Positions 1,945 to 56,791 of a stretch of 64,000 nucleotides of DNA are shown here, piece by piece; position 1 is the first letter of the stretch; each line of letters starts with the position of its first letter. Source of the DNA: Planctomycetales bacterium 10988 (GTDB taxonomy: Bacteria; Planctomycetota; Planctomycetia; Pirellulales; Pb10988); contig CP043547.1 in the NCBI GenBank assembly GCA_009664345.1, forward strand, positions 2,136,709 through 2,200,708. Reading direction: 5' to 3'. The position numbers and the translations under genes were made by a program. Under the pieces are notes generated by a model. It searched no databases and had not been told where the DNA came from. It was given only the letters and a program-made list of their open reading frames with translations.

Positions 1945-1959
1945 GAAAAACCGCTTTTC
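1945..1959. repeat. dispersed A/T-flanked quasi-palindrome, copy in the purD leader
   Basis: GAAAAACCGCTTTTC, whose reverse complement is GAAAAGCGGTTTTTC. It is the only intergenic copy seen directly upstream of, rather than after, a gene on the same strand. Confidence 0.5.
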
Positions 1960-2015
1960 TTTGGGCTTGGCGGAGGCCCAATCCGCTTGCTTCCATTTTC
2001 GCAGAGGCCAATCAG

Positions 2016-3302
2016 ATGAAAATTTTAATTGTCGGAAATGGGGGACGTGAACACGCCTTGGCTTGGAAAATCGCCCAAAGTCCGCGAGCGGATCGCGTTT
2101 TCGTGGCTCCTGGCAATGCCGGAACGCATACCGAACCGGGTGTCGAAAATGTCGATATTCCAGCAATGGACTTCGATCGGTTGATTAAATTTGCCAAACA
2201 AGAAGCGATCGACCTGACCGTAGTCGGCCCAGAGGCCCCTCTCGCGGCCGGGATTGTCGATGCCTTCCAAGCCGAAAAGCTCAAGGTTTTTGGTCCGACC
2301 AAAGCCGCCGCCGAACTCGAAGGAAGCAAGGTCTTTTGCAAAAATCTGCTCCGTCATGCCGATGTCCCCACGGCGGATTTCAAAGTCTTTCGAAAATCCG
2401 AAGATGCCTTGCACTATGTCAATCACCGTGAAGAAACCCCGCTGGTGATCAAGGCATCTGGCCTGGCGGCGGGCAAAGGCGTGATTGTCTGTCAAAATCG
2501 GGTCGAAGCCCGAGAAGCTGTTCAGCAAATTATGGACGATCGGGCCTTCGGCGAAGCTGGCGATCAATTGGTGGTGGAAGAATGCCTTCGAGGACAAGAA
2601 TTGAGCGTTTTGGCAATCACCGATGGCCGGACGATTCTTCCTTTGGAACCTGCTCAGGATCACAAACCAGCCTACGAAGGCGACCAAGGTCCGAACACCG
2701 GAGGCATGGGGGCTTACACACCGGTCCCGCAGTTTTCCGATGATCTTCTGGACAAAGTCGAAAGTGATATTCTCGTTCCGGTGGTGCATGCCATGAAGCG
2801 GCAGCGGAGGCCGTTTCGCGGTATCTTGTATGCTGGCTTGATGTTAACTCAACAAGGCCCGAAGGTTTTGGAGTTCAATGTTCGCTTCGGAGACCCGGAA
2901 TGTCAGCCGCTTTTGATGCGTCTCAAGACCGATCTGGTCGATCTCTTCGAAGCAGTTGTCGATCAGCGGTTGGATGAAATTGGCCCGTTGGAATGGGACC
3001 CACGTCCTAGCGTTTGTGTCGTGATGGCCAGCGAAGGGTATCCGGGAGAGTATAAAAAGGGGCATCCGATTCGTGGACTGGACGAAGCCGCCGAAGTTCC
3101 TCAAGTCAAAGTTTTCCATGCGGGAACGGCCATTTCCAATGATCTTGTCGTCAATAATGGCGGCCGAGTGCTGGGAGTGACAGCCTTGGGAGATTCGCTC
3201 CCTTCGGCAAAGTTGCAAGCCTATCGCGCTGTGAAAATGATCCGTTGGCCAGGGGCTTGGTGCCGCAAGGATATCTCGGACAAAGCCCTCTCCGACAGCT
3301 AA
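2016..3302 (+). CDS. purD: phosphoribosylamine--glycine ligase (GARS)
   Basis: Catalyses the ATP-dependent joining of glycine to 5-phosphoribosylamine, the second step of purine synthesis, in the cytosol. The 428-residue length fits PurD. Family signatures are visible in order: the N-terminal GNGGREHALAWK, the ATP-grasp loop KASGLAAGKGVIV (about 146-158), the GPNTGGMGAY segment (about 228-237) and the metal/phosphate motif LEFNVRFGDPE (about 287-297). GAGG lies eight bases before the ATG. No other purine gene adjoins it. It converges on the NYN gene with only about 30 bases between the stops. Confidence 0.97.
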   Translation: MKILIVGNGGREHALAWKIAQSPRADRVFVAPGNAGTHTEPGVENVDIPAMDFDRLIKFAKQEAIDLTVVGPEAPLAAGIVDAFQAEKLKVFGPTKAAAELEGSKVFCKNLLRHADVPTADFKVFRKSEDALHYVNHREETPLVIKASGLAAGKGVIVCQNRVEAREAVQQIMDDRAFGEAGDQLVVEECLRGQELSVLAITDGRTILPLEPAQDHKPAYEGDQGPNTGGMGAYTPVPQFSDDLLDKVESDILVPVVHAMKRQRRPFRGILYAGLMLTQQGPKVLEFNVRFGDPECQPLLMRLKTDLVDLFEAVVDQRLDEIGPLEWDPRPSVCVVMASEGYPGEYKKGHPIRGLDEAAEVPQVKVFHAGTAISNDLVVNNGGRVLGVTALGDSLPSAKLQAYRAVKMIRWPGAWCRKDISDKALSDS

Positions 3303-3308
3303 TAGTTC

Positions 3309-3346
3309 CGTAAGTTATTTATTTATATCACCTTACGATTTTTTAT
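3309..3346 (+). terminator. weak hairpin plus T-run after purD
   Basis: CGTAAG (3309-3314) can pair with CTTACG (3332-3337) across a 17-base A/T-rich loop, followed by A and six T. The stem is short and its 3' arm overlaps the stop of the convergent gene. Confidence 0.3.
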
Positions 3347-7194: not shown

Positions 7195-8400
7195 ATGGAT
7201 ATGCACGACTTGACACGCGAGCTGTCTTTAAAAAATGACTCGAAGATCATCATGCTCGTTTCGGATGGGATCGGCGGGTGTGCCCTGGAGCCGGGTGGAC
7301 CGACCGAATTGGAAGCGGCCAACACGCCGAATCTCGATACCTTAGCACGCGAAGGTTCTTGCGGCCTCAGCATTCCGGTGCAGCCGGGCATCACTCCCGG
7401 AAGTGGGCCGGGCCACTTGGGGTTGTTCGGTTATGATCCGCTCAAATATCAAATCGGCCGCGGTGCCCTCGAAGCGACGGGGATCGGTTTTCAACTTCAA
7501 CCGAAAGATGTCGCCGTTCGCTGTAACTTCTGCACCGTGGATGATCAAGGAAACATTACCGATCGACGCGCGGGCCGCATTTCGACGGAAGAAGCCGCCC
7601 CGCTTGTGGAAAAGCTCAACAATATCAAACTGGATGGGGCCGAAGTCTTCGTTCAACCTGTGAAAGAATATCGCTTCGTACTCGTCCTGCGTGCGGCGGG
7701 CTTAGGCGGAAGTGTCGCCGATACCGATCCGCAAAAGACCGGCGTTCCGCCACTTGATCCGAAACCGCTTGGCGAACGCAGCAACTCTACCGCGGTCCTC
7801 GCCAAGCAGTTCTTCGAAAAAGCTTGCGAAGTCCTCAAAGGAGAACCGAAAGCGAATGCCCTCACCATGCGTGGTTTTTCGCCCCGCCCTTCTCTGCCGA
7901 CTTATGAAGAAGTTTACAAGCTCAAAGCCGGGGCCATTGCCGTTTATCCGATGTATAAAGGGTTGGCCTCGCTCGTCGGGATGGATTTACTCGGGGAAGC
8001 CAAGACGCTGTCCGAGCAAATCGATGTGCTGGAACAGAATTGGAATGATTACGATTTCTTCTTCATTCACTTCAAATATACCGACAGCACCGGCGAAGAC
8101 GGGAACTTCGAAGCCAAGGCGAAACGGATTGAAGAACTCGATGCGATCATCCCCCGGATTCGCAGCCTCGACCCGACCGTTTTGACCGTGACCGGCGATC
8201 ATAGTACTCCGGCCTTGATGAAAAGCCACTCTTGGCATCCCGTGCCGACTTTGATCCATGCCCCGCATGCCCGCGTCGATCGTTGTCAAAGCTTTGGAGA
8301 AAATGAAGCCGCCATCGGACAACTCGGAACGTTTGAAGCTCGCTTCCTGATGCCAATGCTGCTCGGTCATGCCGGACGCTTGAATAAGTTCGGCGCGTAG
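7195..8400 (+). CDS. apgM: 2,3-bisphosphoglycerate-independent phosphoglycerate mutase, archaeal type
   Basis: Interconverts 3- and 2-phosphoglycerate through a phosphoserine intermediate with two metal ions. The alkaline-phosphatase-fold signatures are the N-terminal LVSDGIGG, the serine nucleophile region TPGSGPGHLGLFGYDP (about 63-78) and the C-terminal metal motif TVTGDHSTPALMKSHSWHPVP (about 330-350). The length of 401 residues matches the aPGM family rather than the longer GpmI. The start is fixed at the ATG because GGGAG lies nine bases upstream of it; the in-frame TTG at 7174 lies before that ribosome-binding site. Confidence 0.95.
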   Translation: MDMHDLTRELSLKNDSKIIMLVSDGIGGCALEPGGPTELEAANTPNLDTLAREGSCGLSIPVQPGITPGSGPGHLGLFGYDPLKYQIGRGALEATGIGFQLQPKDVAVRCNFCTVDDQGNITDRRAGRISTEEAAPLVEKLNNIKLDGAEVFVQPVKEYRFVLVLRAAGLGGSVADTDPQKTGVPPLDPKPLGERSNSTAVLAKQFFEKACEVLKGEPKANALTMRGFSPRPSLPTYEEVYKLKAGAIAVYPMYKGLASLVGMDLLGEAKTLSEQIDVLEQNWNDYDFFFIHFKYTDSTGEDGNFEAKAKRIEELDAIIPRIRSLDPTVLTVTGDHSTPALMKSHSWHPVPTLIHAPHARVDRCQSFGENEAAIGQLGTFEARFLMPMLLGHAGRLNKFGA

Positions 8401-8407
8401 GATAATT

Positions 8408-8441
8408 CAAAAAGCGGTTTTCACATCAAAAGCGCTTTTTA
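8408..8441. repeat. two tandem copies of the dispersed quasi-palindrome after apgM
   Basis: CAAAAAGCGGTTTTCA (8408-8423) and CAAAAGCGCTTTTTA (8427-8441) lie between the apgM stop and its hairpin terminator. They are the only two adjacent copies in the window. Confidence 0.6.
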
Positions 8442-8454
8442 TATTGAACCAAAG

Positions 8455-8513: not shown

Positions 8514-9866
8514 TCAATATTCTTTATCGCCCTCGGCGGCATCGGATCGAATGAGTCGGGCATCGAGCCAATTCGCGTAATCGGCTGCGTCTCCCCGTTC
8601 AGCATAGCGAACGAGAAGCGTTAATTGCCGGGCCTTTTTGATATCAATGGAAATCGGCACCGGCCGGTCGCCCGTGCGAATGATAGGGCTTTGATACTTC
8701 AACTGTCGATCGACCACCACTTGAAATTGCACACTTCCTTCCGGTCCAGCGGCATCGTCGATCGCAAGTTCCGCCTCAAAGCGTTCGACTTTCGAATCCA
8801 ACCGATAGAGGAGTACCGAGGCACTGGGCACTCCGATCCCTTTCAAAAAGCGCTTTTCACTTACCCGAAGGGTTCGCCCGAGCAAATTACGATCTTGTTG
8901 ATAAGCGCGACTTAATGAAAGAAACGGCAGGTGCCGATAAGCGACCGGCCTTTCATCTGACAAATAACGGACCAGCCCGCCTCTCGGATTCCATGGTTGC
9001 ACAAAGCAAAGAGCTTCGGGAAAATCGACTCGCCATTGACTTTTTTGCAGACTCGGCAGAGCCGTTGATTGCAGCAACACCCCCGAATCGCCCAGTGAAA
9101 GCTTGCTGACTTGTAGAAGAGTTCCATCGGTAAAGCCGACCCAAGCCAAGGGCGAAGGGTATGTGGAAGCCGTCGGAAGCGTCCGTGGATGAACACTCTG
9201 CACTTGCGAAAAAGGAACCGTAAACTTTCCAACTTCCGACTCAAGCACCAACAGCAGTTCCGCAGGCTGAAGCCACGTCGGGCCGTTCGGCTCTTCATTT
9301 TCAGAACGGATTTCCAGCAAATTCCCCCGCAAACGATCCCCGTTAAGCAGCACAATCTCGTCTTGCTCTAAGTCCCAATCTGTCGCATTCGCCAGGCGTT
9401 GATCGAACTGCCCTGGACTGGAAGGCATGGTCAACAGCAGAGCCTTAATCTGATTGCGAGGAATTGCGATCGAGCCGAAGAGATAGCTTTCGATTTGCAA
9501 CATCCCTGCTTGAAGTGAGGCGGGATTGCCAATCAACTGACTTCCATCTGAAAGGAGCAACAGATGCGAACGCGGGGCCGGTCGCTTCAAGGCCCCCCAG
9601 CGAATGAGATGGGCAAGCGGGAATTCTCGCCGACGATTACGAATCGCCAGCGAAAGGGTTTTGGCCTGGGAATCCAACCTGGCGAGTTGCGACTCAAAGG
9701 CCTTTCCTTCAAAGACAGATTGATCCGTCAGCAAGGTTTCCGCCGCGGGAAGTTCTTGGGCAAAGCTAGGTTCTAAGTGAAGGAATCGCACAGATTCCCC
9801 ACCTAGCCAACTTCCACAAACAGTGACAAGCAAGCAGAGTCGCCGCCAGTTTCGCAAAAATTTCAC
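8514..9866 (-). CDS. secreted NPCBM-domain protein
   Basis: A 450-residue protein with an N-terminal signal peptide (hydrophobic stretch about residues 9-18) and a C-terminal NPCBM/NEW2 carbohydrate-binding-like domain of roughly the last 150 residues (KGIGVPSASVLLYRLDSK..., VERFEAELAIDDAAG..., ANWLDARLI). The middle has short repeated units with the sense 'L.NGD.L.G' typical of planctomycete extracytoplasmic proteins. A GTG start is chosen: GAGGAG lies four bases upstream, and the longer reading frame would overlap the preceding gene. It is the last gene of the MoxR-led block. The function is unknown; a role at the cell surface is inferred. Confidence 0.75.
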   Translation of the reverse strand: MKFLRNWRRLCLLVTVCGSWLGGESVRFLHLEPSFAQELPAAETLLTDQSVFEGKAFESQLARLDSQAKTLSLAIRNRRREFPLAHLIRWGALKRPAPRSHLLLLSDGSQLIGNPASLQAGMLQIESYLFGSIAIPRNQIKALLLTMPSSPGQFDQRLANATDWDLEQDEIVLLNGDRLRGNLLEIRSENEEPNGPTWLQPAELLLVLESEVGKFTVPFSQVQSVHPRTLPTASTYPSPLAWVGFTDGTLLQVSKLSLGDSGVLLQSTALPSLQKSQWRVDFPEALCFVQPWNPRGGLVRYLSDERPVAYRHLPFLSLSRAYQQDRNLLGRTLRVSEKRFLKGIGVPSASVLLYRLDSKVERFEAELAIDDAAGPEGSVQFQVVVDRQLKYQSPIIRTGDRPVPISIDIKKARQLTLLVRYAERGDAADYANWLDARLIRSDAAEGDKEY

Positions 9867-24767: not shown

Positions 24768-24896
24768 TGACAGCCTTGCTTGGAAAAAGAATACAAAACA
24801 CTCGGAAAAGCCCCCCGAGATTCTTTCTATTCTAAAAAACAAACAGGCTCGGGTCAAAACCATCAAGTGAGGAGAATCACAGGAAAGAAACTGGAA

Positions 24897-25193
24897 TCAC
24901 TGAGAGATGACTTTTTCTTGAGAAGACGGGGAGACTTGTTGATTCGCTTCCGCTTTTCGTGCCTTGCAAACTTCATAATACATATAAAGTCCAAAGGAAC
25001 CAAAAATCAAAAACGGCATCGCCATCATAAACAAAATACTCCACTGATAGGCTTCCGCCAATTTTTCTCCATCTTCGCCAATCGTTTGTTTACAAGTCGG
25101 ACAAGCCAATAGAGGCAAGACTTGCCCCAAAGACAAATAAAGAAAGCTCAACAAAAAGAAAAACTTCGTCCGTTTTGTGGAATCATTAAACAT
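24897..25193 (-). CDS. small CPxC membrane protein at the end of the oxidase locus
   Basis: 98 residues: a signal-like N-terminal helix, then ACPTCKQTIGEDGEKL (about 31-46), a transmembrane helix (about 50-72) and a short polar tail. The CPTC pair next to a membrane suggests redox or metal handling. Given the neighbours (SCO, DUF420, oxidase subunits) a role in oxidase maturation is inferred. I do not recognise a named family. Confidence 0.65.
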   Translation of the reverse strand: MFNDSTKRTKFFFLLSFLYLSLGQVLPLLACPTCKQTIGEDGEKLAEAYQWSILFMMAMPFLIFGSFGLYMYYEVCKARKAEANQQVSPSSQEKVISQ

Positions 25194-25213
25194 GATGAAA
25201 TCTCAGAAATATT

Positions 25214-34580: not shown

Positions 34581-34820
34581 CGAGACCTTCTCCAACTTTT
34601 CAGAGGCGAGCGATGGCGACCTGTTCCCTCGAAAGGTATGGCCAAAACTTAAATGAAATAAAGAACACTCGATCAAAAGTGAATTTCAATTCGTTTTGTC
34701 CACCCATTCGAAAATCAATCCAAACCAAGCAAGTGTTCTCAGTGTAAAGGAGATCGATTTTCTAGATAGGGATAAAAGTGAAAAAATGCCAACCTGAGCA
34801 AAATCTCACAAGATCAAAAG

Positions 34821-46213: not shown

Positions 46214-46251
46214 AGAATGATTGAGTTCGAGATCGATTACGAGAGATATAT

Positions 46252-46267
46252 AAAAAACACTTTTTAA
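46252..46267. repeat. dispersed quasi-palindrome after the P-loop gene
   Basis: AAAAAACACTTTTTAA, 38 bases after the stop codon of the P-loop gene. Confidence 0.5.
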
Positions 46268-46425
46268 TAGATGCTGCATGAGACTTCACCAGACCCGACC
46301 AAAACTCGGTAACGGAATCCTTTCATGCAACAGTGAATCAGTTTGATGCCATAACAACCCGATCTCGCAGCCGGATATCCAGTGTTGCGGGAAGCGTCGA
46401 GTTTGTTTCTCTGGGAGACCGAAAC

Positions 46426-47247
46426 ATGTACGAGGCCTATTGGCAATTGAACCACCGCCCATTCGAGAACGTTTCGGATGCCGATTTTTATTATCCCGGA
46501 GAGGGGCATCAAGGAGCCTTGCTCAAGCTCCGTTATTGCATCGAAAACAAAAAAGGAGCCGCTCTCCTAGCAGGCGATCATGGCTCGGGCAAGACGCTCG
46601 TCGTCGACATGCTCGCCCGGCAACTGCCTGAGGAATATCAACCTTTCGTGCATGTGGTCTTTCCGCAAATGCCACCTGCGGACCTTCTCTCTTTCTTAGC
46701 GGAAGAATTTTCTGCACAAGATCAGAACGCTGCACCACGTAGCATGGATCAAAGTGTACGCAGCCTCCAACGCAGCCTAGCGGAGAACACCGAACGCGGT
46801 CGTCATGCCGTCATCGCGATCGACGAGGCCCACTTGCTTGAAGACAATGCTTGCTGGGAAGCCCTCCGTCTGCTGATGAATTTCCGCAGTAATGGGCATC
46901 CAGATCTCACCTTCCTTCTCATCGGTCAGATGCCCGTCTTGAGCACGATCAATCGCATGCCGAGTTGGGAAGAACGCCTCAACGTGAAGTGCCTACTCAA
47001 GTCACTTACCCTCGACGAAACGGCTTGTTATCTCCAACACCGCTTGGTTGCCGCTGGTGGACGCCCCGAGATTTATAGCCCTGAAGCCGTGACCACAATC
47101 CACCGTCTGGCCGAAGGAATGCCCCGCCGCATTAACCGCTTAGCTGATCTCGCCCTGGTTGTCGGCTATGCGGAAGAGCTGGATCAAATTGGTGCAGCCG
47201 AAGTCGAAGCAGTTTGTGAAGAATTGATTACCGTCGGTGCCGAGTAA
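46426..47247 (+). CDS. ExeA-like AAA ATPase
   Basis: 273 residues. It starts MYEAYWQLNHRPFENVSDADFYYP, the typical opening of ExeA/PEP-CTERM-locus secretion ATPases. Walker A is LAGDHGSGKT (about 45-54) and Walker B VIAIDEAHLLED (about 124-135). The C-terminal helices include GMPRRINRLADLALV. ATPases of this type act with polysaccharide or secretion systems on the inner membrane. The ATG at 46426 with GGGAG eight bases upstream is preferred over the longer frame. It lies 212 bases after the P-loop gene. Confidence 0.9.
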   Translation: MYEAYWQLNHRPFENVSDADFYYPGEGHQGALLKLRYCIENKKGAALLAGDHGSGKTLVVDMLARQLPEEYQPFVHVVFPQMPPADLLSFLAEEFSAQDQNAAPRSMDQSVRSLQRSLAENTERGRHAVIAIDEAHLLEDNACWEALRLLMNFRSNGHPDLTFLLIGQMPVLSTINRMPSWEERLNVKCLLKSLTLDETACYLQHRLVAAGGRPEIYSPEAVTTIHRLAEGMPRRINRLADLALVVGYAEELDQIGAAEVEAVCEELITVGAE

Positions 47248-47250
47248 TCT

Positions 47251-47267
47251 CAAAAAATGCTTTTCGG
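47251..47267. repeat. dispersed quasi-palindrome after the ExeA-like gene
   Basis: CAAAAAATGCTTTTCGG, four bases after the stop codon. It is a weaker match in the centre. Confidence 0.4.
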
Positions 47268-47444
47268 TTTCTGCGGCCTGCCTCCTACCAGACGCAAGCC
47301 CGCATCCATAACTTCGAAGCGAGTTGAAACCAAAAAGTGAATTTTGAGTTGAGTCCCAGCCCCGGTAGTTCCCACCTTGTTCACTTCGCAACTTGTCGAA
47401 GTCTATCCAGGCAGTGTAGCCTCTTGATCCGTTGGTAGGACCCT

Positions 47445-48527
47445 ATGACAAAGCAGCCTCGAAACTCCGAAGCCCTTGAGAATCCATTTCAAGCCGCGGG
47501 CCTTTCACTAGGGGCACCGACAACGAATCCGAGTAAAGAATGCGATTTGTGTTGCAAGACCACCTATCGCACGCTGTGTCGGCAAGATCGGCATGGCAAT
47601 CCTCTTGAAACCGCGATCTGCGACCATTGCGGTTTGATTTCGCATGCCAAGATTCCTACCGAGGCCGAACTTAGCGACTTCTACGCTCACCGCTACCGCA
47701 AAAGTTATCATGGACAGGCCGAACTTTCCCCGCGTCGCATCATGCGTGCCTGGAAGAAAGGCCAACGGGTCCACGGCGATTTAGCGAAGTTCTTGCCTCG
47801 GTCAACCCGCCTCTTCGAAGTCGGTGCGGGCCTCGGTTGCACGATCAAGATTTTCGAACTGGATGGATTCGAAACCTCCGGCATTGAGCCTGGCCGCAGC
47901 TTTCAAAACTTCGCCCAAGAAAAAATTCTTGCCTCGGTAAGCTCGGAAAGTCTATTCGATCTGCCCCCCATTCCGCAGTTCGATGTGATTCTCCTGATTC
48001 ATGTCATTGAACATTTTGCCTCACCACGGCGTGCCTTGAAGGCGATTCATCAACTGCTGCATCCCGGCGGACAACTCTATGTCGAATGCCCCAATGTCGC
48101 TGGTTATTTCGCCACGCCCAAGCGATGGTTTCATTATGCCCATGTGCATAACTTCACCCCTTGGACGCTGACGGCGCTCGCTAAGGAATGTGGATTCGAG
48201 GTTCATCAACGCTGGGGAAATGACGAGTCCGCGAATTTGAAGTATCTGCTAACTCGCAGTTCCACCCCGTCTCAGGGGATTGATGTGGAAGAACTTACAA
48301 AAAGCGGTTTTGAGAAGACGATCGAAGCCCTCAAGGACCGTTCCTTCACAGCTTACCATTTCCGCAAAAGCTATTTGAAAGAGCGGGCCAAAAAGCTACA
48401 ACGCTATCTCGTTGAAATGACGCAAGCCAAGCGTTTTGTCCAGTCGATCGTGACAATGTGCCAAGAAGTCGAAGCCAATCGCGTCGACCCAACGCCGCTG
48501 CCGACACCCCTACGCCGCGCCGCCTAA
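47445..48527 (+). CDS. zinc-ribbon class I SAM-dependent methyltransferase
   Basis: 360 residues. The N-terminal CDLCCKTTY..CDHCGLI (about 34-65) is a four-cysteine zinc ribbon, as in sugar or secondary-metabolite C-methyltransferases. The Rossmann core has LFEVGAGLGCTIKIFE (motif I, about 122-137), then FDVILLIHVIEHFASPRRALK (about 174-194) and HPGGQLYVECPNV. A C-terminal helical extension follows. The substrate is unknown; the neighbouring glycosyltransferase makes a sugar or glycan intermediate plausible. AGGA lies four to five bases before the ATG. Confidence 0.88.
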   Translation: MTKQPRNSEALENPFQAAGLSLGAPTTNPSKECDLCCKTTYRTLCRQDRHGNPLETAICDHCGLISHAKIPTEAELSDFYAHRYRKSYHGQAELSPRRIMRAWKKGQRVHGDLAKFLPRSTRLFEVGAGLGCTIKIFELDGFETSGIEPGRSFQNFAQEKILASVSSESLFDLPPIPQFDVILLIHVIEHFASPRRALKAIHQLLHPGGQLYVECPNVAGYFATPKRWFHYAHVHNFTPWTLTALAKECGFEVHQRWGNDESANLKYLLTRSSTPSQGIDVEELTKSGFEKTIEALKDRSFTAYHFRKSYLKERAKKLQRYLVEMTQAKRFVQSIVTMCQEVEANRVDPTPLPTPLRRAA

Positions 48528-48557
48528 ATTGGCATCCTCTTCGTTCCAGCCAACAAA

Positions 48558-50303
48558 ATGAATTGTGTCCCTATGGATACTGCCCCCTCTAATGCGAAGA
48601 TTCCCAGGGCACCAAGCGGGAAGAGTTGGCAATTTAACTTGAGGCTCTTGGAAAAAAGTCTCCATCCGCTCGACCGCTTTCCTGCCCTTTTGTTGGCGCT
48701 CGGGGCGATGCTTGCCGGGCTATTGCTCTTCATTTCGACAAGCGATTCCATCCCGATGGTCTGGGACGAAGGCGATTACATTCGTCGTGGGCAACTCGTA
48801 CAGTCGAGGATTCTCAACAAGGATGCTCCGCAAAATGCGAGTTCGCCACCGCTAGCCTGGCCCTTTTTAAACGTTCGCGAGGGACACCCTTCCGGTTTTA
48901 TCTACCCGATCGCTCTCGGGGAATGGCTCGCTCCGGCCTCGTGGTCCCCGCTGACACGCTATCGCTACGGGCCGATGATTTGTTTTTCGTTGGCAGGCGG
49001 TTGCCTGTTCTATCGACTGGCGCGAGAGGCTTCTTCTCTCGCCGGTATCGTGACCTGCCTAGCTCTCTTCGGTCAATCACGCCTCTTCGCCCACGCACAC
49101 TTTGCGACACAAGACGGTCAACTCGTCGCCTGGACGTTGATTGCCTGGGCTTTCTTCTCCCCTGCTCTGCGTTCCTGGATCGCCTGTGGTTTCTGGGGAA
49201 TTTGTTTGGGAATGCTTCTTTCAGTCAAGTTCTCCGCGTTACTTGTCATTCCTACTTTTTGGATTGCTGTCCTCTTTCTATGGAGTAGGCGTGCTTGGGT
49301 TTCGATTTTCATAAGCACGGCAATTGCGATAAGTACTTTTTGGATATTCAATCCACCGCTTTGGACGGAACCGCTTGAAGGCTTGAAGGCTTACTTTCGA
49401 CTCAACCTCAACCGCCAAGAAAATTTTAATATTACCGGGTATTTTCTTGGAGGCTACTACGACCTTGACCATCCCCTCCCCTGGTATAATTCCCTCTTTT
49501 GGCTGGCGATTGTCTTACCGCTTCCATGGCTGATTCTCGGCCTCTTCGGCCTCGGCCACTGGTGTTTCATTTCCATTCGTGATCGAAAAGATCACTGCTT
49601 TCTGCTTTCTGCGCTCGGAATCCTCGCAGTCTTTCTCATTACACGAGCCATGCCGGGGGTGCCTGTGCATGACGGAGTTCGCCTGTTTTTGCCGGCGTTT
49701 GGAGTCTGGGCGATCTTCGTCGGATGGGGAACGCACCACTTTATGCGATGGTCGCTTTGCGAGTTTTCACGATGGAAAGCTGCAAGTTGGCTAATTCTGT
49801 TTGGTACGATGCTAGGAGGCGTTCACGGCGCAGCTAGGTATTTTCCACAAAACCTTTCCTACTACAATCTTCTCATTGGCGGGCTGCGTGGGGCAACGGA
49901 TGCAGGAATGGAGCCAACGTATTGGTGGGATGGGCTAGATGCGGAAGCCTTGAACTGGTTGCATGAGCATACTCCAGAAGGGGAAAAGATTGGTTTTTCC
50001 GCTTGCTCGGTGCAGAATCTCCAGCTATTGCAAGAGTGGAAAATTTTGCAACGAGGGACCCTTCGTCATCAACCGGGGGCCTATCGCTGGTATGTGGTCC
50101 AGAATCGGCCCAGCGGGATGAACCCGATTGATCAATACTTAATTGCCAACGAGAAGCCAGCGTTCAGAAAATATATCCATCCGCCAAGCGACGACTGGGG
50201 ACCGTGGAAGTTAGATGTGCCGCTTCTGGAAGTCTACTCGATGGAACAGTTCGCCCGTGCTGTTCAAGCGATCCAACAAGCAAAGCATTCAGAGAAAAAT
50301 TAA
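48558..50303 (+). CDS. GT39-type membrane glycosyltransferase
   Basis: 581 residues with about ten transmembrane helices. The first periplasmic loop carries SIPMVWDEGDYIRRG (about 68-82), with the acidic Asp-Glu pair typical of the dolichyl/undecaprenyl-phosphate-sugar-using GT-C superfamily (ArnT/PMT-like). A soluble C-terminal part (about 440-575) follows. It likely transfers a sugar from a polyprenyl carrier to a lipid or protein. It is 30 bases after the methyltransferase gene. The start has no clear Shine-Dalgarno, and an ATG 15 bases downstream is possible. Confidence 0.83.
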   Translation: MNCVPMDTAPSNAKIPRAPSGKSWQFNLRLLEKSLHPLDRFPALLLALGAMLAGLLLFISTSDSIPMVWDEGDYIRRGQLVQSRILNKDAPQNASSPPLAWPFLNVREGHPSGFIYPIALGEWLAPASWSPLTRYRYGPMICFSLAGGCLFYRLAREASSLAGIVTCLALFGQSRLFAHAHFATQDGQLVAWTLIAWAFFSPALRSWIACGFWGICLGMLLSVKFSALLVIPTFWIAVLFLWSRRAWVSIFISTAIAISTFWIFNPPLWTEPLEGLKAYFRLNLNRQENFNITGYFLGGYYDLDHPLPWYNSLFWLAIVLPLPWLILGLFGLGHWCFISIRDRKDHCFLLSALGILAVFLITRAMPGVPVHDGVRLFLPAFGVWAIFVGWGTHHFMRWSLCEFSRWKAASWLILFGTMLGGVHGAARYFPQNLSYYNLLIGGLRGATDAGMEPTYWWDGLDAEALNWLHEHTPEGEKIGFSACSVQNLQLLQEWKILQRGTLRHQPGAYRWYVVQNRPSGMNPIDQYLIANEKPAFRKYIHPPSDDWGPWKLDVPLLEVYSMEQFARAVQAIQQAKHSEKN

Positions 50304-50316
50304 AAACCACTTTTTA
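50302..50316. repeat. dispersed quasi-palindrome overlapping the glycosyltransferase stop
   Basis: AAAAACCACTTTTTA begins within the TAA stop codon of the GT39-type gene. Confidence 0.5.
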
Positions 50317-50396
50317 TATTTTGTAGTCAAAAGAAATTTGATAGTAACACTTTCTACGTGCCCCAACTGTTTCTGTTGGGTTTTGTCCACTGGCTC

Positions 50397-51212
50397 TTAG
50401 TATTTGCCTCGACGACGCTCTTTCCCCGGCAATACTTCCAAACAGGTCGTCCACCATCCTGTGAGAATCGTTTCGATGAACTCTTCGGGAAGCCCTTCTT
50501 CGGCCATCTCTCTGGCCAAGCGATCGTGGTCATACTCTACCGGAACGAATTCTATTTTAAGACTTCCTGATGAGTCGACTTCGAGCAAGGTATACCAAAC
50601 ACAAGCTTGCCCGTCATTTTCCGGTCTGCCTAAGACCCCAACATTCAAAAAACACTTTTCGTTAGAAAGTCGACGCTCCCAATGAATCCCCGTGTGAGTG
50701 GCCACGATCACATCGGCCTCGTAATCCTCCAGCAAAAATTCCAGAAACGCGGACGACGTAGTTGACTCCCAAAGAAACTCATTGACCTTACGTGGACTCC
50801 CATGACAAAGCAAAAAGCGTTTTTTGTTTATCGTAAAGCGAAATTCAGTTGGGAGCGATCGCATCCAGATTCGATTCGTTTCGGAAGTCTTTTGCAAGGT
50901 ATAGTCAAAACTGATTTTTGCGAAATGATTATCGCGGGGGTCCGTATATCCACACTGACAATCATCGAGCGACCACCCGACGGAATGATCGTAATTCCCC
51001 TGCATGCACTGAACTTGATATTTTTGCAAAAGTGGAAAGACGCGATCGGGATGAGGGCCGAACGCTCCCAAGTCTCCTTGGCAATAAATCGCATCGACGC
51101 CACGGTTTTCAATCTCTTTCAGGGCCGATTCCAAAGCTAAATAATTGCTGTAGATGCCCCCGAGGCAGGCAAATCTGTAAACGGCTTTGCTCATTTTGCT
51201 TTCACTGCTCAT
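50397..51212 (-). CDS. metallophosphoesterase-fold protein lacking the D-x-H motif
   Basis: 271 residues, similar to YfcE/MJ0936-type phosphoesterases. Later motifs are present: QGDLGAFGPHPD (D47), QGNYDHS (N73), LLCHGSP (H137) and ATHTGIHW (H173, H177). The first motif, normally S-D-x-H-G-N, reads G-G-I-Y-S-N (18-23), so the metal-binding Asp and His are Gly19 and Tyr21. The two-metal site is therefore incomplete. Its ATG directly follows the TGA of the radical SAM gene (TGAATG), so translation is coupled. The reaction is unknown. Confidence 0.85.
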   Translation of the reverse strand: MSSESKMSKAVYRFACLGGIYSNYLALESALKEIENRGVDAIYCQGDLGAFGPHPDRVFPLLQKYQVQCMQGNYDHSVGWSLDDCQCGYTDPRDNHFAKISFDYTLQKTSETNRIWMRSLPTEFRFTINKKRFLLCHGSPRKVNEFLWESTTSSAFLEFLLEDYEADVIVATHTGIHWERRLSNEKCFLNVGVLGRPENDGQACVWYTLLEVDSSGSLKIEFVPVEYDHDRLAREMAEEGLPEEFIETILTGWWTTCLEVLPGKERRRGKY

Positions 51213-52115
51213 TCACTCTCGGTGTGCCTGCCCCGAAGGATTGGAGCAAATCGCCCCATATTGATAGCAGGTGAAGCAGGCCCCGTGACGTATCGAAAAG
51301 TGCTTTTTGCTTTCATTAAGTGTCTGGCCAAGTTGCGAACCTTCTTCCTCGATTAAGATAGGACAAACTTGAACACCCCGATCGGTGATGATCCGGCTAT
51401 GTTCACACAGAAGTTGCGAAGTATCGAAATCTTGCATCATTTCTTCTGTAACCCGCTCGTCCTGTAAGTAACCGTTGGTCCGCTTGGCCTCCGCTCCAAT
51501 TTGCAACGTCGGTAGGATTTTCAACCTTGGCCTAGTATATCCATGCTCCTTCAAGGTCGAAATAAACGCCTGAAGAATCTCTTCCTCATCTTGAATCGGC
51601 CAAGTTCGGGCCGCAGTGATGATGGGTAGAAAGCCATGCTTCACGAGTTTTGTTACCCCTTGTATCGCTTTGCGGAAGGTATTCTTTCCACGAATCGGAT
51701 CGTTGGTTTCAGGAGAAAAGCCATCGATCGACACACGAAATTCCAAGGAATACAGCGATTTTTGTTCTGCCTTACGAAGACTTTTCAACCAAGGCTCTTT
51801 CAAAATGGTGCCATTGGTCAAGACTGTGGCAGGCCCGTAATTGAGGGTTTCTTCGAGAATTGCGACCATTTCGCGATTAAGAAAAGGCTCGCCTCCGGTG
51901 AAATAATATTCTTTCACTCCGTGCGAGACCGATTCTTCCAAACGTTGACGCACTTGTTCAAGCGAGAGAAAGCCAAAATTCCGATTCGTTGGGCTACAGG
52001 AAATAAAACAGTGATGACAAGTGATGTTGCAGAGCGTTCCTCCGACTTGAAACCAAAGCTGGTCCAAGTGGCTTAGTGCAACGCTCGGAGCTTGAGTGGA
52101 AGTCTTCTTTCCCAT
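51213..52115 (-). CDS. radical SAM protein with C-terminal cysteine cluster
   Basis: 300 residues. The canonical C-x3-C-x2-C motif is CNITCHHC (29-36). TGGEPFLN (about 74-81) is the SAM-binding GGEP motif, and the barrel strands follow (VLTNGTIL, EFRVSIDG). The C-terminal part has extra cysteines, LLCEHSR, VCPIL and ACFTCYQYGAIC, consistent with a SPASM/twitch auxiliary cluster. Such enzymes often modify peptides or small molecules; the substrate is unknown. It is between an FAD oxidoreductase gene upstream and the phosphoesterase-fold gene downstream. Confidence 0.9.
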   Translation of the reverse strand: MGKKTSTQAPSVALSHLDQLWFQVGGTLCNITCHHCFISCSPTNRNFGFLSLEQVRQRLEESVSHGVKEYYFTGGEPFLNREMVAILEETLNYGPATVLTNGTILKEPWLKSLRKAEQKSLYSLEFRVSIDGFSPETNDPIRGKNTFRKAIQGVTKLVKHGFLPIITAARTWPIQDEEEILQAFISTLKEHGYTRPRLKILPTLQIGAEAKRTNGYLQDERVTEEMMQDFDTSQLLCEHSRIITDRGVQVCPILIEEEGSQLGQTLNESKKHFSIRHGACFTCYQYGAICSNPSGQAHRE

Positions 52116-52135
52116 CGACCTGCTTCACAGAAAAA

Positions 52136-52152
52136 CAAAAACTACTTTTTGA
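52136..52152. repeat. dispersed quasi-palindrome between the oxidoreductase and radical SAM genes
   Basis: CAAAAACTACTTTTTGA, identical to the copy near ctaD (31996-32012). It lies about 29 bases after the oxidoreductase stop on the minus strand. Confidence 0.6.
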
Positions 52153-52180
52153 AATAGGTAGTTCACAAATCAAAAAATCA

Positions 52181-53443
52181 TTATTTAATTTTTTCGGCAG
52201 CGCTCGCATAAAGATCCAATTCCGCGCGATCGCCGATTAACGTGAATAACTCTCGGACTTGGTTCAATCCTTGTTGGATCAAGAAATTTGTATTCCGTCC
52301 GTAACTTTTCGAGCCGAGTACATAGAAATGAGCTTCCGGATTTAAGAGAGATTCAACACCGGCAGAAGTTTGTTGCAAGCAGTCCGCCGACTCGTTCTGC
52401 ATCAACGAGGCAGCGAGCTTCATCGGCCCTTCGGTTGCATAACAGAGGTGCATCTGACATTCCCGAACCATTTCCCAATCGGGCCGAAACCCGACATTCG
52501 CGATGATTTCATTGACGTCAAAAGGTTCGATTTCTTTTTGATTCGTCGTGATGGTTAGCCGAGCGGACGAACTTTCGCTAGAGCAAATAGTCTCGACGGT
52601 GGCCCCTGGATGGAAGGTTAAGCATTTCGGGGGATTGCTTGCAAGTTGGTTGACTTTCTCGGCAAGCTCGTCGCGATATTTCAAGGAATCCTCGGGAAAA
52701 CGAGCAATCGGCTCCTGAGATTCTTTCCGCGTTAGCCAAGTGATTTCCGTCTGTGGTTCTTGCTCCGCTAAAGCGATCAAGTTCAGGAGATTTGTGGCGG
52801 CAGAGTATCCCGATCCTATCAAAAGCACTTTTTGATTTGCATAGCGATTGCGATCTGTTCCTAATAGATCTGGCAATTGATAATGAATTCGCGAGGAGAG
52901 CTTTCGTTCTCCTAGGGCAGGAATCCCGCCACTGCCGAGCCAGTTCGGATTTCCGAACGTGCCTGTCGTATCAATCACCACTTCGGCACTAGCGATCGAT
53001 TCACTGCCATCGGGCTTTTCCAACAGAAGCCGAAAATCATACTCCTCACGTTCTTCATCGCCAACGAGGTCCCCTTTGAGAAGGTCGTTATGGCTTACCG
53101 CGATCACCTTGGTTTGCTCTTGGATGCAGTCGAGAAGAAGGTCGGTCTTTGCCAACGGTTGCAAAAATTGCTCGACATACTCCTTGCCAGTCAACAATGC
53201 TTGGTCGTCTGGAAAGTTCTGCTGCTCATCATGAATCTGGAGGGCCATGATCGCCAGCGAGGAACGGTTGAGGGTGAAGGGGCTGAACATTCGCACGTGG
53301 CCCCATTGCAACATGTTCTCGCCCACCCTGCCCTGCTCATAGACATCGACATTGTATCCAAGAAATCGGGCATAAAGAGCGGTCTCCAGACCGATGGGGC
53401 CTGCTCCGAGAATCGCAATGCGGGCGGGCGCATCAACGGCCAT
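52181..53443 (-). CDS. FAD/NAD(P)-binding oxidoreductase of the radical SAM trio
   Basis: 420 residues. FAD fingerprint IAILGAGPIGLETALYAR with the acidic residue VYEQG at the end of the second strand (about 8-37). A second dinucleotide fold, VLLIGSGYSAATNLLNL (about 205-221), binds NAD(P)H. The layout resembles flavin monooxygenases and thioredoxin-reductase-like enzymes, but no redox C-x2-C is visible. The ATG at 53443 is chosen because GAGGA lies just upstream; a TTG at 53482 with GAGG six bases before is an alternative. It heads the trio, 65 bases before the radical SAM gene. Confidence 0.85.
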   Translation of the reverse strand: MAVDAPARIAILGAGPIGLETALYARFLGYNVDVYEQGRVGENMLQWGHVRMFSPFTLNRSSLAIMALQIHDEQQNFPDDQALLTGKEYVEQFLQPLAKTDLLLDCIQEQTKVIAVSHNDLLKGDLVGDEEREEYDFRLLLEKPDGSESIASAEVVIDTTGTFGNPNWLGSGGIPALGERKLSSRIHYQLPDLLGTDRNRYANQKVLLIGSGYSAATNLLNLIALAEQEPQTEITWLTRKESQEPIARFPEDSLKYRDELAEKVNQLASNPPKCLTFHPGATVETICSSESSSARLTITTNQKEIEPFDVNEIIANVGFRPDWEMVRECQMHLCYATEGPMKLAASLMQNESADCLQQTSAGVESLLNPEAHFYVLGSKSYGRNTNFLIQQGLNQVRELFTLIGDRAELDLYASAAEKIK

Positions 53444-53595
53444 ACCTTCCTCAACTTTCGCAAAAATAGAGTTCTTGTCCAAACCAAACCTCGGAAATTA
53501 CCTCTACTGTTGGCAATCTTTGAAGTTTGACAAGACTGAATTTTACGGCTTTTGACAAGAAAGGTCAGTATGCTCCCTCACAATTTTGCTGCGAT

Positions 53596-54549
53596 TTACG
53601 CCCTGGGATGAAATTGTTGGTGAATCGATTTGAGCCTGGTGGGATCGACATGGGTGTAGATTTGCGTCGTGGCGATGCTGGCGTGACCGAGCATTTCTTG
53701 CACATGCCGCAAGTCCGCACCGCCGGAAAGAAGGTGCGTGGCGAAGCTGTGCCGCAAGGTATGCGGGCTGACATCCGTTAAGCCGAGCCGCTTTGTATGT
53801 TTTTTGATCAGCTCCCAAATTGCCTCGCGGCGGAAACGGCGACCGGTTCGCGACAGGATCACCCAATCAGGATGACTCCCGCGGGCCGCGAGCGTGGGAC
53901 GTTCTTTTTGCAAGTATTCCTGAAGTGCGGCCTTTGCCCTTCCGCCCAATGGCACCAGGCGTTGCTTGTCCCCTTTTCCATGACAGCGGCAGAAGCCCTC
54001 TTCCAAATGTAGATCGGCCAGCTTGAGGTCACTTGCCTCACTCGCCCGACATCCGGTAGCGTAAAGGAGTTCCAATAAAGCACGACCGCGTAAATAATGA
54101 GCATCGCTAGGACGAGGGCTATTTAGCAGGGCCTCAACTTCAGAAGGATTGAGAACGTGAGGAATCTTTTGCCACAGCGTCGGACTGCCCAAGAGTTCCA
54201 CAAGGTTTTCGCTCAGAATGCCTTCGAGTTGCAGATAACGGAAGAACATTTTCAGCGAAATAATATGGCGGGCGATGGTGCCCGGCGCGAGCTGCTGACG
54301 GTGCATCCAACTTAAATAGTCGGAAAGATCACTCAAGGTCAAGCCAGGGATCGGGCGGCCTGCGAGCCATTGTTGAAATCGTTGCAGATCGAGACTGTAG
54401 GCGGAAACCGTATTGTCGGCCATCCCGCATTCGCTACGGAGATAGCTAATAAACGCCTGAATCCAGGGATGCACGGAGGCGGAACCACCGGCGGCCATCC
54501 GCTGGGGCTGGCCCGGCAAGGGTCGCGGAATCGGGGTGCGACGTGGCAT
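53596..54549 (-). CDS. tyrosine recombinase, XerC/XerD family
   Basis: 317 residues, normal for Xer. An N-terminal SAM-like DNA-binding domain (VHPWIQAFISYLRSE...) precedes the catalytic domain with R168 (ATGCRASEASDLK), K192, H263-x-x-R266 (HTLRHSFATHLL), H289 and the nucleophile Y298 (TTQIYTHV). It resolves chromosome dimers at dif or acts on an integrative element; with no element nearby the first is likelier. XerC and XerD cannot be separated by eye. The ATG at 54549 has AAGGA nine bases upstream; the longer frame is not needed. Confidence 0.92.
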   Translation of the reverse strand: MPRRTPIPRPLPGQPQRMAAGGSASVHPWIQAFISYLRSECGMADNTVSAYSLDLQRFQQWLAGRPIPGLTLSDLSDYLSWMHRQQLAPGTIARHIISLKMFFRYLQLEGILSENLVELLGSPTLWQKIPHVLNPSEVEALLNSPRPSDAHYLRGRALLELLYATGCRASEASDLKLADLHLEEGFCRCHGKGDKQRLVPLGGRAKAALQEYLQKERPTLAARGSHPDWVILSRTGRRFRREAIWELIKKHTKRLGLTDVSPHTLRHSFATHLLSGGADLRHVQEMLGHASIATTQIYTHVDPTRLKSIHQQFHPRA

Positions 54550-54643
54550 GAAGCAAGTTCCTTTCGCGGGTGTCCTCGTTGAATCGGCACCTTGGTCGAG
54601 AAGATGCCTTATTCGTTCTTTCGTCCGCCGAGTAGCAAAACTT

Positions 54644-54660
54644 GCAAAAGGTACTTTTTC
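54644..54660. repeat. dispersed quasi-palindrome between xer and the YhaM-like gene
   Basis: GCAAAAGGTACTTTTTC in the divergent region, upstream of both genes. Confidence 0.5.
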
Positions 54661-54717
54661 CAAATACAGTCGTTACATTCCTAAAATTCCTTACTTTAAG
54701 CGAGTGAGACTTTCACG

Positions 54718-55773
54718 ATGGCAAAGACTTCCAAGAAAATAGCGATTGTGCCGCTTCACGAATTAATCGATGGGCAAGAGGCGGATTGCTTCGTCATGCT
54801 GTTTAAAAAAGAAGTACTACAGACGAAGGAAGGGAAGCCTTATTTCCGTGTGGGTTTTCGCGATCGGGAACGCGAAGTGGTCTTTCCGATTTGGAATGAT
54901 GGACCGCTGGCAGAAGAATGCCGCAATGCCTGGGAGGTGGGAATTTGTTACAAAGTGCGAGCCCTCTTTCGCGAAACGCAGTACGGCCCACAGCTTGATA
55001 TTCGTAAGATTCGCCCTGTCAACGATGACGATCAGCAAGATGGCTTTGACCGCAATGATCTTTTTCCAGCCGGAAGGTGTCGTCCGGAGGCGATGTTCGA
55101 TCAGATCATCGAATGGATTGAGGAAAACATAGTGGACGATCGTTGGAAGCAGTTAGCAAACTCGATCTTCCAAATTTATAAAAAGCACCTTTTGGAAATG
55201 CCAGCCTCGACCGGGCGACATCATACCTATCGCGGGGGACTCTTGGAGCATTTATTGAGTGTGGCAAAGCTTGCCGATTCGATGGCGGAACACTTTGCGG
55301 CAGTCTATTCAGAGATGCAGCCACCTTTGCATCGCAACCTGCTCCGTGTCGGGGCGTTGCTTCATGACATTGGAAAATTACGAGAACTGGAAGTCATCGC
55401 CGGAACGGGACAATATTCGCCGGCGGGGCATCTGGTTGGTCATGTGGTTTTAGGAAGGGATGTAGTTCGCGAAGCAATGGCGACGCTCTCGGAAGAAGTG
55501 ACTTTCACGGAAGAAGAGCAACTTCGCCTGGAGCATTTGTTGCTCAGTCATCAGGGGACGTTAGAGATGGGATCACCCAAGTTGCCGATGACGGCCGAGG
55601 CGATGTTGATCGCTCATGCGGATCGGTGCGAAACGGAATTTTTTCAACTCGTCGAAGGCTTCGCGGAAGATACGCAGGAAGGTCCCGTCACGGGCAGACG
55701 AAAGAACTTGCAAAGAGTACTTTTTAGAGGTTGGAAAAGTTCTTCTTCAGAGAGCAACAACGACGAAGGTTAA
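54718..55773 (+). CDS. YhaM-like 3'-5' exoribonuclease (OB fold plus HD domain)
   Basis: 351 residues. An N-terminal OB fold (about 10-105) binds nucleic acid. The HD phosphohydrolase domain has HHTYRGGLLEH (about 164-174), LLHDIGKLRE (about 210-219) and later histidines in GHLVGHVVLGRD and LLLSHQG, giving the metal ligands. YhaM-type proteins degrade RNA 3' to 5' with a metal cofactor. Its stop overlaps the stop of the convergent prmC gene (TTAA). Confidence 0.88.
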   Translation: MAKTSKKIAIVPLHELIDGQEADCFVMLFKKEVLQTKEGKPYFRVGFRDREREVVFPIWNDGPLAEECRNAWEVGICYKVRALFRETQYGPQLDIRKIRPVNDDDQQDGFDRNDLFPAGRCRPEAMFDQIIEWIEENIVDDRWKQLANSIFQIYKKHLLEMPASTGRHHTYRGGLLEHLLSVAKLADSMAEHFAAVYSEMQPPLHRNLLRVGALLHDIGKLRELEVIAGTGQYSPAGHLVGHVVLGRDVVREAMATLSEEVTFTEEEQLRLEHLLLSHQGTLEMGSPKLPMTAEAMLIAHADRCETEFFQLVEGFAEDTQEGPVTGRRKNLQRVLFRGWKSSSSESNNDEG

Positions 55774-56657
55774 TTCCCGTTGCGTTTGGCTCGAACAATG
55801 CGAGGATGTTTGGCCAAGTCCTTCACTGTCGGCAGGATCTCAAAGCGACCATCGTTTTGAATTAGCTCGCGAACGTGGGGTTCGATTTGAGGGCTGACTT
55901 CCATCAAGAAACCACCACCGGGTAGCAACCGCTCGGCCGAGGCGGGAATGAGTCGCTCGATCAGATCGGTCCCCTGCTCCCCTCCGTCGAGGGCGAGATG
56001 CGGCTCGAAGTCACGGACATCTCGCGGCAACTCGGGGATCTCTTTCGAGAGAATATAAGGCGGATTGCTGACGATAAAATGATAGGCAGCCTCGGCAGGA
56101 ACGGCGGCAAGACCGTCGCTCCGTTCAAAATGAATCCGATCAATCACTTCATGATGAGCGGCATTTTTCTCCGCCACTTCCAACGCCTCATGGCTGAGGT
56201 CCAACGCCAGCCAATGCAGGTTCGCCGCATGTTTCGCGGAAGAAACAGGAATACAACCGCTGCCGGTTCCAATGTCGATGGCGTGAATGGCTTCCTCTTT
56301 GGCATACGATTCCTTGATCCAATCCAAAAGCGAAATCACCAAAAATTCCGTTTCCGGGCGAGGGATCAACACTTCGGGACCCACGAAGAACGAAAGCGAA
56401 TAGAACTCCCGGTGCCCGACCAGATACGCGACCGGCTTCCCTTCGGCCCGTTGTTTGACAAGTTCGCGAAAGGTCTGCCGGACGGATTCCTCGGGTTCTT
56501 CGTGAAAAGCCGTGTAAAGCTCGATCCGTTCGCAACCGCAGGCGTGAGCCAACAACACTTCCGCGTCAAGTCGCGGAGATTCCGCCCCGTGCTTGGCTAA
56601 AAAATCTTTCGTCCAGTTGATTAAGCGTCCGGTCGTCCATGTTTCCGTCGAGGTCAT
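55770..56657 (-). CDS. prmC: release factor glutamine N5-methyltransferase
   Basis: Methylates the glutamine of the GGQ motif in release factors. 295 residues with an N-terminal helical domain, SAM motif I AIDIGTGSGCIPVS (about 126-139) and the glutamine-binding NPPY at 198-201 (IVSNPPYIL). It lies 153 bases after prfA, its substrate gene, on the same strand, a common arrangement. The gap holds a copy of the dispersed palindrome at 56775. Confidence 0.95.
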   Translation of the reverse strand: MTSTETWTTGRLINWTKDFLAKHGAESPRLDAEVLLAHACGCERIELYTAFHEEPEESVRQTFRELVKQRAEGKPVAYLVGHREFYSLSFFVGPEVLIPRPETEFLVISLLDWIKESYAKEEAIHAIDIGTGSGCIPVSSAKHAANLHWLALDLSHEALEVAEKNAAHHEVIDRIHFERSDGLAAVPAEAAYHFIVSNPPYILSKEIPELPRDVRDFEPHLALDGGEQGTDLIERLIPASAERLLPGGGFLMEVSPQIEPHVRELIQNDGRFEILPTVKDLAKHPRIVRAKRNGN

Positions 56658-56774
56658 AGGCCATCCAATGTGTTGATTCGAACGTTTTCAAAAAGTTCCA
56701 TCTCACGCCGACAAACTGTCACTTCGCCAAACGAAATCTTCATCAAGTAAAGTCAAGAACATGCCCGCAAAACC

Positions 56775-56791
56775 CAAAAGTGCTTTTTGCA
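56775..56791. repeat. dispersed quasi-palindrome between prfA and prmC
   Basis: CAAAAGTGCTTTTTGCA, 20 bases after the prfA stop on the minus strand. Confidence 0.55.

Follow-up and report, generated by a model that had tools for sequence, protein, structure and literature searches.

A 22-bp palindrome with the consensus WWnYAAAAAGYRCTTTTTRnWW is dispersed over the chromosome of Planctomycetales bacterium 10988 in an estimated 1,200 copies, is concentrated just behind stop codons and often forms doublets with a spacing of exactly 25 bp. It was noticed in a stretch of 64,000 nucleotides (nt; contig CP043547.1, positions 2,136,709 to 2,200,708; G000:C1:2136709-2200708), which is called the window in the following. 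With moderate confidence, the palindrome is regarded as the predicted operator of a homodimeric DNA-binding protein that would act at the 3′ ends of genes, architecturally or as a boundary to transcription. The first-pass annotation of the window had described a dispersed quasi-palindrome and considered it either a small bidirectional terminator or a highly iterated palindrome of the HIP type; the observation was confirmed, more strongly so for the whole genome than for the window alone, and the interpretation was partly supported.

Motif and copy number

The genome consists of one contig of 6.65 Mb, of which 100 pieces of 20 kb and the window were examined (2.064 Mb, 31%). The first 1.66 Mb were sampled more densely; piece L093 was taken from a region where matches were already listed, and another piece adjoins the window. 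Sulfatases and a prepilin-type H-X9-DG protein in the gene content point to Planctomycetota. Sites were scored with a symmetric 24-bp matrix trained on sites of the same 2.06-Mb sample, and the reversed matrix was used as a control. Sites of ≥18 bits are referred to as strong and those of ≥14 bits were listed. Gene-based counts use a purpose-made gene caller relying on codon scores, which predicted 1,514 genes (84.8% coding).

In the whole genome, 615 copies of YAAAAAGYRCTTTTTR with at most one mismatch were found (2 for the reversed control), and 899 matches to CAAAAAGNNCTTTTTG with at most two mismatches (73 for the reversed control). The matrix search resulted in 382 sites of ≥14 bits in 2.06 Mb, compared with 19 for the reversed matrix, and the total of about 1,200 sites is extrapolated from this sample. 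The scores are bimodal, with 311 sites of ≥20 bits versus none in the control and few intermediate values. That the word should be rare by chance holds true: the window contains 39 strand-matches to the earlier consensus (≤2 mismatches), whereas 100 dinucleotide shuffles gave a mean of 1.46 and a maximum of 6. Codon use does not account for the copies either, as 148 strong sites lie wholly in genes versus 3–10 after shuffling of synonymous codons within each called gene (n = 10). Between genes, 179 sites were counted versus 0–1 in an order-4 Markov simulation (6 runs), an expectation that is not close to the observed number.

Four A and four T positions are near-invariant across the sites. The centre is a pyrimidine-purine step that occurs in every combination (TA 123, TG 84, CA 80, CG 58; n = 345 strong sites), mostly flanked by G and C, and the outer W positions are almost free of G or C. 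The motif is nearly identical in coding and intergenic sites, and the conservation of the flanks fades about 5 bp beyond the 16-mer. Among the 345 strong sites, no covariation between mirrored positions was detected; the mirrored G/C pair is complementary in 153 of them, where 173 would be expected if the two positions were independent. Deviations on one side are common, and sites in which both sides of the G/C pair deviate are fewer than independence predicts (24 versus 36.8 expected), a pattern as would be expected for binding by a dimer.

Placement relative to genes

The 345 strong sites comprise 157 in coding regions, 111 in tandem gaps, 59 in convergent gaps, 9 in divergent gaps and 9 at piece edges. 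This corresponds to 2.3 sites per kb in convergent gaps, 0.66 in tandem gaps and 0.09 in both divergent gaps and coding DNA. The copies seen shortly after stop codons in the window reflect a peak 0–45 nt past the stops in the sampled 2.06 Mb, with 149 site-stop pairs having the site centre in this interval (a site in a convergent gap can count twice). Coding sites are found in all three frames (69, 50 and 38 of 157). Site density increases with the G + C content of the piece (rho 0.38, 101 pieces); the quarter of pieces poorest in coding G + C has 0.14 sites per kb of non-divergent gap versus 0.95–1.39 in the other quarters.

The sites are clustered. After merging of neighbours within 130 bp, sites of ≥14 bits form 11 clusters in 2.06 Mb, compared with a mean of 1.0 and a maximum of 5 in 200 uniform random placements. 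The accumulation at 45–57 kb of the window, already noted in the first pass, is the largest of them, with 15 independent positions (45219–56789). A regular spacing of 1 kb, hinted at by the positions 45219–51294, was rejected as it fails genome-wide. The two largest clusters contain glycosyltransferase or exopolysaccharide-like genes, and other clusters contain genes for ectoine synthase, a DDE transposase, sulfatases, flavin adenine dinucleotide (FAD) oxidoreductases and kinases. Genes in clusters have a weaker codon bias (median 0.186 versus 0.212, p = 0.0025, 57 versus 1,330 genes). A prophage-like stretch encoding a terminase large subunit, an Erf-like annealing protein and a primase (L064, G000:C1:3652001-3672000) carries 9 sites in 20 kb, all of which lie ≤32 nt from a gene boundary; of randomly chosen positions, 15% are found at ≤40 nt.

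Phased doublets and arrays

The distances between nearest neighbours show a sharp peak at exactly 25 bp (31 pairs). In the 37 gaps with at least two sites, 25 pairs have this spacing, compared with a mean of 1.0 and a maximum of 6 in 1,000 random placements in the same gaps. At least six runs of three or four sites at steps of 24–26 bp, one of them a run of four, are present among the arrays listed. The 25-bp doublets are nearly restricted to intergenic gaps. As a rule, the two members of a doublet differ in sequence and are not inverted copies of each other either. A single large inverted repeat was discarded as a description of the doublet because for most partners the direct match is about as good as the inverted one. 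Midway to the next 25-bp position, TTCAA/TTGAA occurs on each side of 19 of the 188 intergenic sites versus 1 and 3 of the 157 coding sites; this midpoint is the overlap of the A/T flanks of neighbouring sites.

The same perfectly inverted doublet is found at L070:18856-18902 and L078:19575-19621, in both cases past the intrinsic terminator of a repeated gene that, as read from the sequence, is most plausibly 16S rRNA. The homology between these two regions stops at the outer edge of the doublet.

RNA folding and predicted terminators

As RNA, the 382 single 24-mers have a median folding energy of -1.05 kcal/mol and none reaches -8 kcal/mol; among 35 doublets, 8 have values of ≤-11 kcal/mol. 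Site frequency in tandem gaps is flat (8–17% from 35 bp upward), whereas predicted intrinsic terminators become more frequent with length, from 0–3% of the gaps shorter than 75 bp to about 30% of those longer than 300 bp. This rise is in part due to false positives, since the rule used is crude and gives hits in 43 of the 220 divergent gaps as well; it can also miss hairpins that reach into genes. In convergent gaps, intrinsic terminators were predicted in 9 of 38 gaps with sites and 33 of 121 without, and in tandem gaps in 4 of 73 with and 49 of 552 without. Thus, the sites neither substitute for nor accompany predicted intrinsic terminators. Of 71 short convergent gaps (20–75 bp), 17 contain a site and one a predicted intrinsic terminator.

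Origin of coding sites and distribution in other genomes

The genomes used for comparison belong to the same order as the host or are more distant. For the coding sites, 0.8 Mb of the relative G014 were used, whose homologues cover 20 of 176 coding sites at 24–66% identity (several at only 24–35%). At 17 of these 20 sites the alignment is ungapped across the site. For site 52819 of the window, 19 orthologues from other families (42–52% identical, BLAST) are likewise ungapped and have other residues there. The ungapped alignments point to an origin mostly by substitution for the coding sites tested.

In 669 other genomes of the class, the YAAAAAGYRCTTTTTR word was found 0–10 times each, with at most 7 matches in each of 395 other genomes of the order and at most 10 in each of 396 other genomes drawn from the class (274 of them new). 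The control counts are mostly of the same size, with small excesses (e.g., 7 versus 0) chiefly in family f23. The excess words are of the CAAAAACCACTTTTTG type (G411, 7 versus 0 in the control; G420, 4 versus 0). With two mismatches allowed, G420 contains 10 words, counted without their context, 9 of which lie within 121 kb (G420:C1:4375825-4496798). At the loci L186, L192 and L201 of G480 and G411, the word extends as a 20-bp palindrome, TTCAAAAACCACTTTTTGAA, that recurs in family f23; on the basis of these three loci it was set aside as a different element. Strong enrichment is present in one of the 670 genomes searched in the class.

A search for the doublet pattern in 84,980 species genomes, from which very near relatives may be left out, resulted in 14 records with one place each. 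These belong to Clostridia, Bacilli, Bacteroidetes-type bacteria and one Akkermansia and, judged by the pattern match, are taken as chance. Viral contigs gave no match to the doublet pattern.

A dimer-bound operator and its alternatives

The twofold symmetry without covariation, together with the weak folding of single sites and the 25-bp phasing, suggests that the palindrome is read as DNA by dimers packed at 25-bp intervals. A homodimeric sequence-specific protein would recognise the two A-tracts and the central pyrimidine-purine step, and adjacent dimers would bind cooperatively, side by side along the DNA. Its roughly 1,200 sites would be kept mainly at the 3′ ends of genes, tolerated in coding regions and rare in divergent gaps, which carry promoters. 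Most likely, the protein would serve in chromosome architecture and as a boundary for transcription running past gene ends: an elongating polymerase followed by ribosomes may pass single sites, and a polymerase past the stop codon or in antisense direction may be slowed. Such a role would fit the 3′-end placement, the tolerance in translated genes, the near-empty divergent gaps and the near-confinement of doublets to gaps. A more specific version, a lineage-specific punctuation of the whole genome, is tentatively put forward and seems rather unlikely as it stands; here the phased arrays of a dimeric protein at gene 3′ ends would form a translation-sensitive roadblock that also organises the chromosome, letting ribosome-coupled polymerase pass and stopping uncoupled or antisense polymerase.

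Several points weigh against the dimer operator. The left-right anticorrelation of deviations is partly due to the picking of sites by total score, and coding constraint alone could account for the near-restriction of doublets to gaps. Of the three 16S rRNA copies found, the third (L180) keeps the intrinsic terminator and has no site. At 3 of the 20 coding sites the alignment is gapped; in two of these the protein with the site is longer by 3–4 residues, as expected after an insertion. Site density is equal in genes with a G014 homologue (37 sites in 255 genes, 0.101 per kb) and without (135 in 974 genes, 0.104 per kb), so the low-G + C effect is no clear mark of 'native' genes. The 3′-end placement may reflect tolerance instead of function, and the roadblock version would lower downstream expression where sites split the genes of operons (glycosyltransferase genes in L037, the prophage-like L064). 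The binding protein was not found in this analysis. There is one ParB_N match in the genome, which was not linked to the sites, and this single match led to the rejection of an additional ParB/Noc protein as reader of a non-parS site. No DNA-binding regulator is evident in the translations beside divergent or promoter-proximal sites, with family searches covering two window genes and a few others.

The main rival, improbable in our estimation yet to be taken seriously, is an uptake or self-recognition signal similar to the uptake signal sequences and DNA uptake sequences (USS/DUS) or to HIP, which would accumulate by point mutation and biased retention where it does little harm, and which DNA uptake, recombination or repair would prefer. 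Copies numbering in the hundreds both between genes and within them, there in all three frames, their origin mostly by substitution where tested and their scarcity in low-G + C regions would suit such a signal, as would the sites of the resident prophage-like stretch; twofold symmetry and exact 25-bp phasing are not known as features of USS/DUS, the sites cluster, and their density is the same with and without a G014 homologue. A lower probability is given to an operator read by a global repressor or silencer, which would coat operons in extended occupancy domains, for instance in the two densest cluster regions with their polysaccharide-type genes. The codon bias of cluster genes and the almost empty divergent gaps would agree with it, but the contents of the other clusters are functionally unrelated. 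Low-G + C DNA is poor in sites, the opposite of what is expected for xenogeneic silencing, which was rejected on account of this trend.

The lack of covariation, the weak folding, the independence of tandem gap length and the ungapped alignment of most coding sites tested make both an RNA terminator and an inserted repeat unlikely. For a repeat spread by a transposase, i.e., a repetitive extragenic palindrome (REP), a REP doublet forming a hairpin (REPIN) or a miniature inverted-repeat transposable element (MITE) inserted at gene ends with the 25-bp doublet as mobile unit, the probability is regarded as small. The convergent and tandem placement is the same as that given for REPs (PMC3733652), doublets and short arrays are present, and three coding sites have gaps; however, the remaining 17 of the 20 tested (of 176) are not insertions relative to their homologues, on which grounds an insertion repeat or MITE was rejected, and site 52819 is ungapped to all of its orthologues. 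Doublet partners are mostly unlike each other, degraded copies are few by score, and flank conservation ends shortly outside the 16-mer. A bidirectional terminator acting as RNA hairpin is thought the least probable. It would explain the peak past the stops, the convergent enrichment, the stably folding minority of doublets and the use of short convergent gaps in which intrinsic terminators are almost absent. From the first-pass proposal of a small bidirectional terminator, this 3′-end placement stands; the terminator mechanism was rejected because of the weak single-site folding, the missing covariation, the absence of exclusion or linkage with predicted terminators and the flat frequency over tandem gap lengths from 35 bp, and the strong sites inside genes also speak against it.

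Comparison with known systems

To our knowledge, few bacterial systems of sequence-specific sites have so many copies, namely Chi, the FtsK orienting polar sequences (KOPS), USS/DUS and HIP1, of which HIP1 is still unexplained. Noc, SlmA, MatP and the AT-boxes of ComK represent palindromic or two-box sites that are distributed chromosome-wide and bound by dimers. The sites described here are alike in their symmetry and chromosome-wide spread and differ in sequence, copy number or box spacing; we know of none with this sequence and copy number, the known ones having tens of sites or another box spacing. A literature search for the ComK box written as AAAAN5TTTT gave no result. The consulted portions of the literature on dispersed palindromes of this type, uptake sequences, nucleoid proteins of Planctomycetes, gyrase/REP and ComK contained no item with this motif, and nothing in them contradicts the earlier statement that no element with such a consensus has been described.

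Three systems were compared in more detail. HIP1 of cyanobacteria, GCGATCGC, is described as a short palindrome of very high frequency and little-known significance that is tied to GATC/CGATCG methyltransferases (PMC4390886). Like it, the palindrome is short and frequent beyond the Markov and codon expectation, with coding copies in all frames; unlike it, the YAAAAAGYRCTTTTTR consensus is 22 bp long, based on A/T-tracts, concentrated at gene ends and phased at 25 bp. The proposed HIP type is supported as a resemblance in the hundreds of copies, their presence in all frames of genes and their origin mostly by substitution where tested, and does not apply to sequence, 3′-end preference and phasing. 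REPs of the GTAG/CGTC families are palindromes of 20–40 bp located between convergent and unidirectional genes as singles or dimers, some of them genic (PMC3733652). The placement, the singles and dimers and the copies in genes are shared, whereas here there is no covarying stem and no GTAG/CGTC tag, partners are preferably spaced at exactly 25 bp and coding copies, where tested, mostly go back to substitution. USS/DUS number in the hundreds to thousands per genome, occur within genes as well and favour one orientation in reading frames (PMC2346458). Their motif therefore has an orientation; high copy number and genic copies are common to both, and in contrast the present motif is a twofold-symmetric palindrome with phased doublets. 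For each of REP, HIP1 and USS/DUS, the present palindrome lacks at least one of the defining features tested here. The fixed phasing, the preference for 3′ ends, the near-absence from divergent gaps and the mostly point-substitution origin where tested give this element a strong anatomy, and raise the question of how the marking of about a thousand gene ends benefits the bacterium.

Sites in the window

Of the 19 copies listed in the first pass, with coordinates accurate to within one base, 18 reach ≥18 bits; the copy at 1945 has only 10.7 bits and is to be dropped. Three further strong sites and one weak site were absent from that list. The estimate that about half of the copies lie in genes agrees with 11 genic and 10 intergenic positions among the 21 window sites of ≥18 bits. 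The two copies 20 kb apart that had been noted for their common core (31996 and 52136) are identical over 21 bases including flanks. The sites are listed below without strand; gene families are Pfam assignments where indicated.

8405-8444, two sites (8408-8423 and 8426-8441) 18 bp apart, 24.7 and 23.7 bits, 3′ of the PhosphMutase/Metalloenzyme gene 7195-8400 (Pfam)
8841-8862, site 8844, 24.3 bits, within the NPCBM-domain gene 8514-9866 (Pfam)
31993-32014, site 31996, 27.0 bits, 15 bases past the stop of the COX1 gene 32026-33825 (minus strand; Pfam)
45216-45237, site 45219, 22.5 bits, within gene 44921-46213
46248-46269, site 46251, 23.2 bits, 38 bases past the stop at 46213
47248-47269, site 47251, 24.2 bits, immediately past the stop at 47247 of an AAA ATPase gene
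47328-47349, site 47331, 20.1 bits, intergenic, newly found
48295-48316, site 48298, 22.4 bits, within the methyltransferase gene 47445-48527 (Pfam)
49324-49345, site 49327, 20.9 bits, within gene 48573-50303 (no family match), newly found
50298-50319, site 50301, 27.6 bits, overlapping the stop codon at 50303, between convergent genes
50643-50664, site 50646, 22.2 bits, within the metallophosphoesterase gene 50397-51212 (Pfam)
50808-50829, site 50811, 25.4 bits, within the same gene
50902-50923, site 50905, 18.3 bits, within the same gene, newly found
51291-51312, site 51294, 25.4 bits, within the radical SAM gene 51213-52115 (Pfam)
52133-52154, site 52136, 29.2 bits, the best of the window, between tandem genes, about 30 bases past the stop of 52181-53443 (minus strand)
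52172, weak neighbour of site 52136, 14.3 bits, newly found
52816-52837, site 52819, 23.0 bits, within the pyridine-nucleotide oxidoreductase-type gene 52181-53443 (Pfam)
54642-54663, site 54645, 19.5 bits, in a divergent gap (rare placement) between a phage-integrase-family recombinase gene and an HD-domain gene
55176-55197, site 55179, 22.0 bits, within the HD-domain gene 54718-55773 (Pfam)
55708-55729, site 55711, 18.2 bits, near the 3′ end of the same gene
56771-56792, site 56774, 27.2 bits, 22 bases past the stop of the release-factor gene 56811-57884 (minus strand; Pfam)
45216-56792, cluster of 15 independent positions, largest of the 11 clusters in the 2.06-Mb sample

The part 24001-36000 of the window has a lower G + C content (45–48%), contains cytochrome oxidase genes and carries a single palindrome. 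Gene 44921-46213 resembles a polysaccharide tyrosine autokinase (NCBIfam match below the curated cut-off) and the AAA ATPase gene ending at 47247 resembles the XrtA/PEP-CTERM-associated ATPase (match below the curated cut-off), which suggests a putative exopolysaccharide locus (44921-47247) beneath the densest cluster. Elsewhere in the genome, a repetitive reading frame is open over an entire 20-kb piece (L067, G000:C1:3901001-3921000), and three palindromes within it (L067:17100-18500) are 417 and 420 bases apart, at corresponding places of the repeats.

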